From: Tubulanus polymorphus
Taxonomy: Eukaryota; Nemertea; Palaeonemertea; Tubulaniformes; Tubulanidae
NCBI RefSeq assembly: GCF_964204645.1
Contig: NC_134025.1
Span: 6,205,001-6,269,000 of the forward strand
Direction: 5' to 3'
Length of the DNA: 64,000 nucleotides
Made by a program: the position numbers and the translations under genes. The notes under the pieces were generated by a model. The model was given only the letters and a program-made list of their open reading frames with translations, was not told the DNA's origin and made no database searches. Shown here piece by piece: positions 1 through 44,015 of this stretch. Position 1 is the stretch's first letter; each line of letters starts with the position of its first letter.

Positions 1-841
1 CATTTCGTAAATAATATGTCTTCCACGGCCATGTTAGAGCACATTCTACCAAATCACCAACTTCCAAACGTTTAGAACTGCTTTCAACGATCACTCCTAC
101 TCCGCTCAGACCCCGCATTGTGTTGCCTGGTAGCCATGGTTTAAGATAATGCACTCCAGTGTCTTCATTCATGCAGCATCTCTGAAAATGTCAACAAATA
201 AAGCAATCCTCTAGAAGTAGGAATTTTTGTAAGACACAAGATTTTTAAGCCCTCCATTTATATATAGCTGGTAAACTGATCCATCAGAGATCTTTATGGC
301 AGCAAAGTGGAGATTAACTTACAAGGGCAGGGTCAACAGATAGGTACAGCGTCTTAACAATAACCTCTCCAGGCTGTAAAGGACCTGTCGGATACGGACA
401 GGATTCATGGCGAAAGTGTTCAATTTTGGGCACTCCATCGACCCCTATAATCAGAAATGATAAATGTTGACAGATTATGATGATTACAAGAAAAAGTATG
501 GAAGGGTGTGGTTACATTAGTACAACAAATATGTCCATGTTGTAATACACTACTACGACGATGTCTGCCTTTGAATTAAAGAAAGTACGGTAGTCTGAGC
601 TCAGAGGTACCTACCAATGCCAGAACCTTGGCACTACATTCAAAACATAGAAAAAAACAACGCAACTGAATTCATTTGACATGAAATTGAAAAAATATAG
701 AATGAAGCCACCCAGGCGAAGATAATATTTGTCCTCGATCTCTGACGTATTTTTTTTTATCATCTTTCGTCACATTTTAGATATTTTTCAAGATATCTTA
801 CCTGGCCTGGATGCCAACACAACGTGGAAATTAGCAGGCAT
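1..841 (-). CDS. PTGR2: Prostaglandin reductase 2-like oxidoreductase, 5' exons (partial)
   Basis: Three exons on the minus strand are visible: 841-802 (initiator ATG at 841), 444-323 and 181 to the window edge. Each is bounded by AG and GT and the phases agree. The product begins MPANFHVVLASRPG and continues through VKTLYLSVDP, CCMNEDTG and WPWKTYY. These follow the N-terminus of vertebrate PTGR2 (LYLSVDPYMRCRMNEDTG, WPWQTK) almost residue for residue. The family consists of NADPH-dependent medium-chain reductases of the leukotriene B4 dehydrogenase type that reduce the double bond of 15-keto-prostaglandins in the cytosol. Only about the first 114 residues, the GroES-like substrate-binding part, lie here; the Rossmann cofactor domain is beyond position 1. 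PTGR1 or another MDR paralogue is possible, but the MNEDTG block favours PTGR2. It is divergent from TRAPPC10. Confidence 0.88.
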
Positions 842-32217: not shown

Positions 32218-32463
32218 TGGCCCCTAGTGTCAATAACACAACTATTATCAATTATGTTCCTTCATCACAATCAGATGTGTTCACTATTTCTCTAGATTAT
32301 ACAGCTGTAGATATCAAACTGATGTACATGTAACATTGTGTGCAGATACGGAGTACAGATCACTGCATTACTTCATCCTGTGAATGAACAGTGAATTTTT
32401 CTCTCATCTTCACAATTCCCATCCGTCTAACTAAAACATCAACTCACTTCAACTCACCTAACC
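32218..32463 (+). repeat. Left arm of a ~245-bp inverted repeat
   Basis: This is closely similar (about 85-90% by eye) to the reverse complement of 37612-37860. Shared blocks include TCTCTAGATTATACAGCTGT, AGATCACTGCATTACTTCAT and CTTCACAATTCCCATCCGTC. It abuts a C-rich array on its inner side, as does its partner. Confidence 0.75.
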
Positions 32464-32948
32464 TCCCGTCCCAACCCTCCCAGACCCCATCCCTCCCGCC
32501 CTCCCTCACCCCTTCCCTCCCCCTCCCAGACCCCTTTACACCCCATCCCTCCCGCCCCCCCCCTCCCAGACCCCTCCCTCCCTCCCAGACCCCTTCCCTC
32601 CCTCCCTCCCTCCCAGATCCCTTCCCTCCCTCCCAGACCCCTTCCCTCCCTCCCTCCCAGACCCCTTCCCTCCCTCCCTCCCTCCCAGACCCCTTCCCTC
32701 CCTCCCTCCCTCCCAGACCCCTTCCCTCCCTCCCCCTCCCAGACCCCTTCCCTCCCTCCCCCTCCCAGACCCCTTCCCTCCCTCCCCCTCCCAGACCCCT
32801 TCCCTCCCTCCCCCTCCCAGACCCCTTCCCTCCCTCCCCCTCCCAGACCCCTTCCCTCCCAGACCCCCTCCCTCCCTCCCCCTTCCCTCCCTCCCTCCCC
32901 CTTTCCCCCTCCCTCCCCCTTCCCTCCCTCCCTCCCTCCCTCCCTCCC
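32459..32948 (+). repeat. C-rich CCCTCC array (minisatellite)
   Basis: About 490 bases of polypyrimidine built from CCCTCC with recurrent CCCAGACCCCTTCCCTCCCT units of 20-30 bases. The plus strand is almost free of G apart from one per unit. The G-rich minus strand could form G-quadruplexes. Long ORFs on both strands here are repeat artefacts. Confidence 0.9.
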
Positions 32949-33869
32949 ATCGAGCTTCAACTCTTCCCTCTCTTCCTATGACATCACTCATCTCTACAAT
33001 ACCTCAAAAATGATTTGCCATTTTTCACGACCATATCAATTGAAGTAACAAATCGAAATCCTTAAATCGCTTGCATCATTCACTAGACTAAAGAGATGGA
33101 AGAATTCAAACGATCAAATACCGAGTTCACAAACTAATCACAGTGTCGAAAATCACAAGGCCTCATTTTTTATAGATGAAACTTTTATCATTTGAGGAAT
33201 TTATTCAAATTAATCCTTTCTATTTTTCCTAGCCGTCCAATTAGTAATTATGTGTCCATAATGCGGTTCAAATCAATGTAAGTTTCACAGCATGTTGCTG
33301 TCAATAGATTTCGTTTATCAAATCAAGCAAGTTTCTTTAAATCATCAAACCAAACCTAAGAAACTAAACTAACATTGTTGCGAGGGAGGCATGGAGGGTT
33401 CACTAGACCAGAACCAGACCAAACTTCAATACTGACAATGTTGTGAGGAGGGCAAACACAAACCAAGGACAAGAATGATGGGTTGATTCGGAATAGATCA
33501 AAAACAATCAACCTAATTATGTTGCTTCACAAATTGTGCACATGTAATCTTTTTCACTATGAAACCATCGTGGACCAATGACAGTTGAAAGTCAGATTAG
33601 ATTTTTCTTTACTCTCTACTACTGCTACTACTACTAGAGGCTTTATATGAGCAAGTTTTTTTATGGAATCCTTTTCTTAAGATTTATTAATCAATGCTTA
33701 TCAACTGCTGATGTCTATATGTTATAAAATACATAAACAATATGTTTCATTGTCTCTTCAAGTTACACTTGAACCCAGCGGAACCCAGCGGAACTCCAGC
33801 CATATTTCATCATTTGCCATTTGACATTTTTCCTTTTTTCTTTTTCACTCTGTTTTTGTTTCAGTACTC

Positions 33870-40504: not shown

Positions 40505-40536
40505 TTTATTGTCTAGATTTATAATAATTGTTTATT
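40505..40536 (-). terminator. Two polyadenylation hexamers at the RPS4 stop
   Basis: Minus-strand AATAAA at 40536-40531 overlaps the stop codon (CAATAAAC), and a second lies at 40510-40505. The 3' UTR is therefore probably only a few tens of bases, as is usual for ribosomal protein genes. The second is the more likely functional signal. Confidence 0.5.
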
Positions 40537-43500
40537 GTTTGCTGCTAATACGTCTGTCTCTCTCTTCAGAAATGGTCAATCTGACGCCTTTACCAGCTGG
40601 AAGGGAAACCCATGGTTTGTTTCCTTTACCGATGATGAAGATATTGTTCAACCTGGAAAAGTTAAGAAAATAATGAATAATTCATGATAACTAACGACAA
40701 AGATATCGGATAGCTATTATTGGAAGATAATTGAGGCAAGATTCCATGTACAGTAGACTCCGCTTAGACTGGAGTCCATTCACTCAGATTATCCCATGCC
40801 CCAGACGAAATGACAGCCAAACTCATCAGATCATCTACGTCATCACTATTTGTATTTCCAATTCAATTAGGATAAATCGCTAGTTATCTGAGGCTGACTG
40901 AACTACGAATTTCTTAACTCAATTGATCACAAAAATGACCCATTCCTGTTCCGGACAGCCCTGGTATTTGGCCCTGATCGGTCCTTTAGGAGGTGGGCCA
41001 AGTGGAGTCTACTGTATATTACATTACATCAATACAAAATCTGGATCCTGGACCCTTTAATCGCAAAAATTAAGATGTTATAACGAACCTAGTTGCAAAC
41101 ATATGGCCCACTGAATCCTTGACATGAACGATATCGAATGATCCTGGATGTCGCTCACGATGTGTAACTATTCCAACTCGCCCCAAGTTATGACCACCAG
41201 TTACCATACACAAGTTACCTAAAAAATTCAACATTTAAACATTTTTTAACATCACGAACACATAACAACCGTACGACGTATTTCACGTCTGGAGCCAGAA
41301 TTTATGGCGTCAGATGACACCGAAGTCCACTGTCTAGTGTTAAATAAAGAGCATTCAGGTGATCATCAATGCAATGTCATTTCTTTTGGTAATGCAAACA
41401 TGAACATCCATGCGGACAAATCGTACTCGCGACCGTAAGAAATAGTTTCATATAGGCAATAGTTTGACCATATTAGTCTAAAATGAAACTAACATGACTT
41501 CGATATGCCAACCTTAATTGAGTCCTTTTAGTTACCAATTAACTATACATAAGATCCTAATGTATTATTGCTATTGCCCTATTGTTGGGGACTTAGACTA
41601 GGTTATTTCTTATTTGGTTTTGTAATTCTAGTAATGCTATCATTCCTACTTCATCGCCTTACTCAATCCACTAACACAACTCCATTTCCATATTTTCCAT
41701 ACGATTTAAGACAACACATCCTATACTCATGGACGCCATAATTCTAACCATCCTTTGAAATGTTATATATGTCATTTCTTTTGGTAATGCAAACATGAAC
41801 ATCAATGAAGACAAATCATACTCGCGACCGTAAGAAATAGTTTCATATAGGCAATAGTTTGACCATATTAGTCTAAAATGAAACTAACATGACTTCGATA
41901 TGCCATCAATGTATCAGGGTCCCAACAGATCAAAAATTTCAAAAATTCATGGAGGCAATTAATGTAGTAGTCACCTCTTAAATCAGTACTGTTCTCAAGA
42001 ACTATTAATTTGGTGCTTTTTTGAGAAAATTTTTATCCTATACACAAGCTAAACTCGGTTTTGAATTCAATAAGTAAGAAATCCTAGACCCAACTGTTCC
42101 GATTTAGGCGTAGTAACTGTTCATCTACAAACTAGACAAAAATTTCAAATTTTTCAAATTAAAGGAGTTTCAAGTACTGTTTTGAAGGAGTTTTTAAGGA
42201 ATCAAGGAGCTGTAGGGACCCTGTATATAATATGAAGATCTTTATGTATCATTTCGATTTCTATTGTTTGAAACTAATGGATTAGGTTATTAAGTGGTTT
42301 TGTAAAATCTAGTAACGCAATCATGAAGGAGAAATTCAGATCGCGACAATGTTACTAGAATTTCATTAAATCTACGCCCTCGTTTGAGCCAACAAGTAGT
42401 CGCAGTACATAAGTTAGCTTCAGTAAGAGCACCATTCCTGCTTCATTGAGTCTATTACAAAATAAATATACATGCTTCCATTTCCATACATTTTAACATG
42501 ATTGAAGACAGCACAGCGCTGTACTCATGAACCCCTAACTTTCAACAATCCCTTCATCTTTCATTTAAGCCTTCAGCAACAATAATATCATTGACGATAA
42601 GTTAAATAAATATATGTCATTTCTTTTGGTAATGCAAACATGAACATCCATGCGGACAAATCATACTCGCGACCGTAAGAAATAGTATCATATAGGCAAT
42701 AGTTTGACCATATTAGGCTAAAATGAAACTAACATGACTTCGATATGCCATAAATGTATGATTGATGAAACAACCAAACACTACAATTCAAAATCACCTC
42801 CTTAACGAACAACAGTTAAGCAAAGATAGAGGGAAGTTCTCTCCGATTGATACAATGTCGGTTAAAGGGCTGCTTCTTACCGGACTCGAATTTGATGAAA
42901 TCTCGAATCTTTCCAGTACCGATGTCTAATTGAACTGTGTCGTTGACTTTGATAAGCGGATCCTGGTATCGGATTGTACGTCCATCGTGAGTCACAATAA
43001 ACGGTACACCTTTCGGCGCTACACCGACTTTCTTTACCTTACACAACTTGTACTAAAACGGGACAAATAATTCATTTTGCTCAATAATTGATTGAACGCC
43101 AATCAAAAATGAAAAGCAGAGCAGCGTTTTAAGTCAATGACTAACTTTAGACTCTTCAGCCGTAATACGATGAACAGCGAATCTTCCTTTAACATCATAG
43201 ATCAATCTGAAGTATTCATTCGTTTTCTCGATCGAGATGACATCTAAAACAAACAGTTACATTCATTTACCTACATGCATCGTAGGACAATATTAGATCA
43301 TTGTGAACATGACTGATAAATTTGGACACCTACCCATATATCCGGTAGGGTAAGTTTTATCTGTTCGTACTTTCCCGTCGATCTTGACAAGGCGCTGCAT
43401 GACGATCTTCTGGGTTTCGTCGTATGTAAGGGCATACTTCAATCTGTTTCGCAGGAAAATACACAACGGCAAACATTCCCGACTTTTGTGCGGACCACAA

Positions 43501-44015
43501 CTTGGTTTTGGAGCCTACCAAATCATAAAAACATAGATCTCTCTTAAATATAGATCCTAGAAGTGAAGGCAAACAATCGATTCCGGTTTAATAGATTAGA
43601 TCTCTAACTTCGAAAGGTGGCAAGAGATTTTTCAATCGGAAAACAACGATCAACAAATATCGAAATCGAATTTCCAACATATTCATTTATAAGATACTTA
43701 CAAAAGTTCCCCCAAGCTTGTCCAGCATCCAATGCTTGGGTGCGCGAAGACGCTTCAAATGTTTCTTGGGACCTCTGGCCTAAAAACAGAAAACGATGTT
43801 AGAATTCGGTACTTCCTGGTTAGCCGCATCGCATGCCAAGTAAAATCAATTCGGTCATTCCACTTGAGATCGCGGACATTCCGGCAGTAAAAACATGTAA
43901 ACATTAGAAATAATCAATTGCGTTTCATTTGTACAATAAAAAACTTATATCGCCCTTGGGTTCAAGCGATGAAAGCGGATAAAAAGCAAATATTTCTAAA
44001 AATTTTACCCACCAT
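40532..44015 (-). CDS. RPS4: 40S ribosomal protein S4 (eS4)
   Basis: Seven coding exons on the minus strand: 44015-44013 (ATG only), 43779-43702, 43514-43334, 43243-43146, 43052-42881, 41218-41089, 40652-40532. They sum to 783 nt, 260 residues; vertebrate RPS4X has 263. Exon 1 carrying only ATG is the arrangement of RPS4 genes. Hallmarks in order: [32 protein letters not shown] (S4 RNA-binding region), [59 protein letters not shown] (KOW region), [17 protein letters not shown]. It is a structural component of the small subunit. It hosts three H/ACA snoRNA-like copies in the 1.66-kb intron before exon 6, and is divergent from MTF1. The position before DE reads Y where vertebrates have G. Confidence 0.97.
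41372..41510 (-). ncRNA. H/ACA box snoRNA, intronic copy 1
   Basis: The minus-strand RNA starts TGGCATATCGAAG. A 9-bp stem CATGTTAGT/ACTAATATG (one G-T pair) closes a 10-base loop. Outer CATAT/ATATG pairs complete hairpin 1. A hinge AAACTA (ANANNA) follows directly. Hairpin 2 is closed by TTTCTT/AAGAAA. The ACA of TGACATTG lies three bases from the proposed 3' end. The size of about 139 nt and a sense intronic position in a ribosomal protein gene fit animal H/ACA snoRNAs, which guide rRNA pseudouridylation with dyskerin. Two near-identical copies lie in the same intron. The target is not assigned. Confidence 0.75.
41767..41905 (-). ncRNA. H/ACA box snoRNA, intronic copy 2
   Basis: Same architecture as the copy at 41372-41510, with identical hairpin 1, hinge AAACTA and ACA box (TGACATAT). 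The differences cluster in the apical part of hairpin 2 (CTTCATTGATG for CCGCATGGATG), sparing the closing stem and boxes. This is the pattern expected of duplicated genes under structural constraint. Confidence 0.72.
42612..42750 (-). ncRNA. H/ACA box snoRNA, intronic copy 3
   Basis: Third copy in the same RPS4 intron. The hinge reads ATACTA rather than AAACTA, a change at an N position of ANANNA, so the box still fits. One base at the inner edge of hairpin 1 differs (AGCCTAA for AGACTAA), costing one base pair. The closing stem TTTCTT/AAGAAA and the ACA box are intact. Sequence around copies 2 and 3 is also related (compare 41640-41730 with 42430-42530), so part of the intron was duplicated. 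Confidence 0.72.

Follow-up and report, generated by a model that had tools for sequence, protein, structure and literature searches.

What RNA, if any, is encoded by three near-identical segments that lie in direct orientation within a single intron of the ribosomal-protein gene RPS4 of Tubulanus polymorphus, and how did they come to share that intron? We analysed this locus in a 64,000-nucleotide stretch of the genome (the window; all positions below are counted from its first letter unless another contig is named). With a probability of roughly nine in ten, we read the segments as one box H/ACA snoRNA, of the SNORA16/ACA16/snR46 type, that is present in tandem copies; it would guide modification at 28S U4412/4442, and it belongs to a tandem-duplicated unit whose RNAs have been kept. 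This reading draws on features of the sequence, namely the host gene, the copies, their fold, boxes and box spacings, the match between guide and target, and the homology of the spacers.

The host intron and its three copies

The minus strand of the window carries the RPS4 gene, the exons of which are colinear in a tblastn comparison with a vertebrate RPS4 protein. The coding exons found in this way span 40535..43779 (43779-43702; 43514-42879, with introns inside; 41219-41088; and 40657-40535), and the host intron, at 41219..42880 on the same strand, is 1,662 nt long, has GT-AG ends and interrupts the reading frame in phase 1, splitting a Gly codon. Ribosomal-protein genes are a type of host that often carries snoRNAs. 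In Drosophila S2, they make up 30% of the snoRNA hosts (PMC13228274).

A repeat search of the intron returned three direct copies, whose starts lie 395 and 845 nt apart, all on the minus strand: copy 1, the 5'-most in the transcript, at 42614..42749; copy 2 at 41769..41904; and copy 3, the 3'-most, at 41374..41509, which is 155 nt from the 3' splice site. Together with the tblastn result and the intron ends, this confirms an earlier sequence-only reading of the locus, which had described three H/ACA snoRNA-like copies in one RPS4 intron; the number of copies stands, and the length of ~139 bases then given to each is replaced by a core of 136 nt that runs through ACA+1 (the mature 3' end of copy 1 is expected near 42612). 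Compared in register, the cores differ pairwise at 5, 3 and 4 of 136 positions, with 5/136 separating copies 1 and 2. There are six variable positions (nt 33, 63, 87, 96, 97 and 101), three of them in or beside the loop of hairpin 2, in keeping with the earlier remark that most changes outside the hinge fall in one loop region, and the pockets, H box, ACA and base stems are invariant across all three copies. When the species' own 268-Mb genome was searched with one copy, exactly these three places, and no fourth, were found at E<=10, and a custom covariance model likewise returned nothing else in the window. Since the snoRNA sequence occurs in only three places, all in one intron, it is not a dispersed repeat, and the transposon-like scatter through the genome that the sequence-only reading had named as grounds for giving up its claim was not seen.

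Predicted fold and boxes

Both hairpins form in the minimum-energy fold of every copy (-33 to -36 kcal/mol), which gives the hairpin-hinge-hairpin-tail arrangement of a box H/ACA snoRNA and answers favourably the proposed check for a stable two-hairpin fold. Hairpin 1, the hairpin-2 stem and the terminal ACA are kept in all copies, as had been claimed, and the base stems and ACA are identical. Against dinucleotide shuffles the fold z-score was -4.2 for copy 2, the best of the three, and -1.9 and -2.0 for copies 1 and 3, which are modest values. The change at nt 33 in copy 1 costs one pair near the hairpin-1 loop and that at nt 87 in copy 3 costs one pair of hairpin 2. As there are no compensatory base changes among the three copies, the backing for the fold comes from energy and homology, and the copies neither prove nor contradict it by covariation.

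The canonical distance from pocket apex to H or ACA box is ~14-16 nt, and distances of 14 and 16 nt, respectively, were counted on the predicted structures. The H box, AUAUGA (nt 57-62; minus-strand positions 42688-42693 in copy 1, 41843..41848 in copy 2 and 41448-41453 in copy 3), is the same in all copies, fits ANANNA, lies 14 nt from the apex of pocket 1 and aligns with AgAGUa of SNORA16. The ACA box (nt 133-135; 42615-42617, 41770..41772 and 41375-41377 in copies 1 to 3, minus strand) is 16 nt from the apex of the hairpin-2 pocket and immediately 3' of the hairpin-2 base stem; the RNA would be expected to end 3 nt beyond this box, as is usual for H/ACA snoRNAs. The sequence-only reading had placed the hinge at AAACTA (ATACTA in copy 3), which does match ANANNA, but AAACTA is 19 nt from the pocket apex, and both the Rfam alignment and the 14-nt spacing point to AUAUGA as the true H box, so that the hinge change once thought to fall on an N position affects a stretch that is not part of the box.

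Family assignment

At the gathering threshold, Rfam gave no match anywhere in the window. With an E-value threshold applied to a 1.7-kb region, all three copies matched RF00190 SNORA16 from end to end (1-135/135) on the host strand, copy 2 with 27.8, copy 3 with 26.7 and copy 1 with 24.5 bits (E 0.005-0.03 for a search of this size); the comparison with Rfam H/ACA models that had been suggested earlier thus produced full-length matches, but none that reached the gathering score of 35. The matching elements in the alignment are CGAAG, GGUCAAA, the H box, ACGGUCGC and GAAA.GACA. No H/ACA family outside the clan of SNORA16 was among the matches to E 10 in the 1.7-kb region, the three copies were the only matches to E 1 in a 7-kb search, and a genome-wide SNORA16 search, in which only the best candidates were scored, reported the RPS4 locus as its only match (27.8 bits, E 0.19). 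With scores below 35 and a genome-wide E of 0.19, the placement in this family depends on score, guide and target in combination, and because the three copies are not independent tests of it, the assignment was checked through guide function.

Guide pocket and its predicted target in 28S rRNA

The 5' guide strand of pocket 1, UAUCGAAG (nt 5-12; 41893..41900 on the minus strand in copy 2; copies 1 and 3 have the same sequence), pairs with 28S CUUCGAU(G), and the 3' guide strand, UCAAA (nt 43-47; 41858..41862 on the minus strand in copy 2), pairs with UUUGA in the consensus or with UUUGG in a 28S fragment from the species' own genome; in each copy the two strands adjoin the upper stem (U13-G42/C14-G41). 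On the LSU consensus that Rfam gives for eukaryotes, the pocket forms 8+5 bp, i.e., 13 bp, round one U in UUUUUGA[UC]CUUCGAUG, and the own-genome fragment, UUUUUGG[UC]CUUCGAUG, allows the same pairing with one A-U turned into G-U. Written over both versions of 28S, the predicted target is UUUUUG(A/G)[U]CCUUCGAUG. Among 1,500 random 7-kb sequences, one contained a site with 7+5 or more contiguous pairs when G-U pairs were counted. The own-genome fragment is a diverged insertion, and it was all that a search of the assembly for an intact rDNA or 28S gene returned. It is inserted in contig C2 (28952948-28953159 and beside), near GPCR-like coding DNA, and a further 28S piece adjoins it in the opposite orientation.

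ACA16 and snR46 have a common target, 28S U4412 and 25S U2865, respectively (PMC3542256). The human position, 4412 in the old numbering, is 4442 in the new, and the U4442 that has been assigned to SNORA16 is part of H89/90 in the peptidyl-transferase centre (PMC12288042). In yeast, Psi2865, the product of snR46 guidance, stands five bases before m5C2870 (PMC8307265), and the U predicted as target here has the same spacing, being five bases 5' of a C. The pocket is complementary to the very position known for SNORA16/snR46 guides, and the proposed comparison of pocket and rRNA sequences led to the known site of this family; the RNA most likely marks one site in the catalytic centre of the ribosome. 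The view that these are triplicated H/ACA snoRNAs gains support from the fold, the spacing of the boxes, the pairing of guide and target and the match to the covariance model over its full length, but the RNA is not an unfamiliar one: the end-to-end Rfam match and the 28S target make it a SNORA16/ACA16/snR46 type. For pocket 2, the 5' strand ACGGUC complements GACCGU within UUUAGACCGUC of 28S, but the 3' strand misfits, and a scan of the available 28S segments gave no good site, so no second target is claimed.

Origin of the array

The spacer between copies 2 and 3 (41511..41765, minus strand) and the one that separates copy 1 from copy 2 are homologous. With a 309-bp element removed from the latter, the two align by blastn in two colinear blocks, one of 78 nt (74%, E 1e-8) and one of 96 nt (74%, E 1e-10), which in the first spacer are separated by an additional ~150 nt. 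As both snoRNA and spacer are homologous, the duplicated unit consisted of the snoRNA plus its spacer, about 395 bp, and the array arose by tandem duplication of this unit. The homologous spacers also serve as an internal yardstick for what has been preserved within the unit: the spacer blocks differ at 45/174 positions as against 5/136 for snoRNA copies 1 and 2 (Fisher p 4e-8), and identity is 96-98% among the RNAs versus ~74% in the spacer blocks. Purifying selection or conversion may have kept the RNAs alike while the spacers decayed, and the two fit the data equally. The 309-bp element (41915..42223), which has ~14-bp terminal inverted repeats, CAGGGTCCC(T/A)ACAG, and is perhaps flanked by ATA, has partial relatives in more than 40 other places in the genome; it is this element, and not the snoRNAs, that accounts for the many genome matches of part of the intron.

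Each of these results bears on other ways in which the segments might be read. It is unlikely, though it deserves the most weight among the alternatives, that only one or two of the copies are expressed and functional and that the others are decaying duplicates; the upper-stem pairs lost at nt 33 in copy 1 and at nt 87 in copy 3 would suit such decay, and the 3-5 changes between copies could signify either recent origin or homogenisation by conversion. The pockets, H box, ACA and base stems are, however, identical in all three, and with spacers ~26% diverged while these RNA elements are unchanged, the copies are not simply recent.

We regard it as very improbable that the segments belong to a snoRNA family that reached the intron by retroposition or as another kind of mobile element, for such a family has just three copies in the whole genome, none of them outside this intron, and the colinear, homologous spacers 3' of copies 1 and 2 fit tandem duplication, even if copy 3 has little flank in common with copies 1 and 2 in a three-way alignment and similarity stops near the snoRNA ends. 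Slighter still are the odds of an intronic repeat that forms hairpins by chance and only looks like an H/ACA RNA: a score below the Rfam gathering score is what such a repeat might produce, but it would also have to match SNORA16 end to end in every copy, pair over 13 bp with the known site of that family, space its boxes canonically and reside in a type of gene that often hosts snoRNAs.

A model for the three snoRNAs

In the explanation that we favour, tandem copies of a SNORA16/snR46-type guide, we infer expression, processing, modification and the effect on dose from the sequence. The copies would be released from the intron of the RPS4 pre-mRNA, and each is predicted to be bound by the H/ACA core proteins (dyskerin/NHP2/NOP10/GAR1). 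The pocket of the 5' hairpin would then hold 28S UUUUUG(A/G)[U C]CUUCGAU, and the target U, corresponding to human 28S U4412/4442 and yeast 25S U2865 in the peptidyl-transferase centre, would be made pseudouridine. The ~395-bp unit would have been duplicated in tandem, its RNAs held near identical by purifying selection or conversion as the spacers decayed, and the three copies probably raise the dose of the guide.

How three snoRNAs leave one spliced intron is a question in itself, since exonucleases that trim from the ends would by themselves release no more than the outer termini. Mammals are known to have composite RNAs that span two snoRNAs from the same intron (PMC11028025). Here, with both outer ends shielded by H/ACA particles, trimming could conceivably leave composite RNAs (copy 1-2 or 1-3) beside the single snoRNAs, i.e., a tandem H/ACA sno-lncRNA from a ribosomal-protein intron, an outcome that we consider rather doubtful.

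Comparison with known arrangements

Many multi-copy H/ACA isoforms exist in Drosophila, some of them in shared introns. The sequence-only reading had called a triplicated set within one intron unusual, and animals do mostly have one snoRNA per intron (PMC1821038; PMC11028025), but intronic snoRNA clusters are a recognised class (PMC11028025), so that three copies in one intron are uncommon rather than unheard of. Several snoRNAs occur in one intron in plants and Plasmodium (PMC2656528), and in chicken intragenic duplication is one of the main sources of new snoRNA copies (PMC2653536). The array resembles the intronic clusters of plants, Plasmodium and some animals in that several snoRNAs share an intron (PMC11028025; PMC2656528), and differs from them in consisting of three near-identical H/ACA copies of one guide. 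The four DmSnR60 copies of the Drosophila mfl (minifly) gene are also tandem isoforms that arose by duplication in one host gene (PMC1821038), but these are box C/D RNAs with one copy per intron.

The RNA shares with SNORA16 (ACA16, RF00190) its two hairpins, hinge, tail, CGAAG / GGUCAAA, the hairpin-2 ACGGUCGC and the predicted 28S target, whereas its copies, at 24.5-27.8 bits, lie below the gathering score of that family, and human SNORA16A has the introns of SNHG12 as host (PMC7154078) in place of RPS4 with three copies in one intron. Yeast snR46, compared by target only, has the same target position (25S Psi2865; PMC3542256, PMC8307265). RPS4 is not named as a SNORA16/snR46 host in the literature cited here. 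The family of the RNA is, by its sequence, a known one; what appears to be new is an added member in an uncommon arrangement, for in this animal genome the Rfam cut-off misses an apparent counterpart of SNORA16/snR46.

Other observations

An RNA of unknown function from Plasmodium, RUF2 of Rfam, can be aligned from end to end with 41765-41909 of the window (22.4 bits, E 2), far below the RUF2 gathering score of 90. It has the pocket-1 elements UCGAAG / UCAAA in common with the copies described here and may be the form that SNORA16/snR46 takes in Plasmodium. Elsewhere in the window, positions 32391-32991 are occupied by a long strand-biased simple repeat that is open in several frames on both strands.
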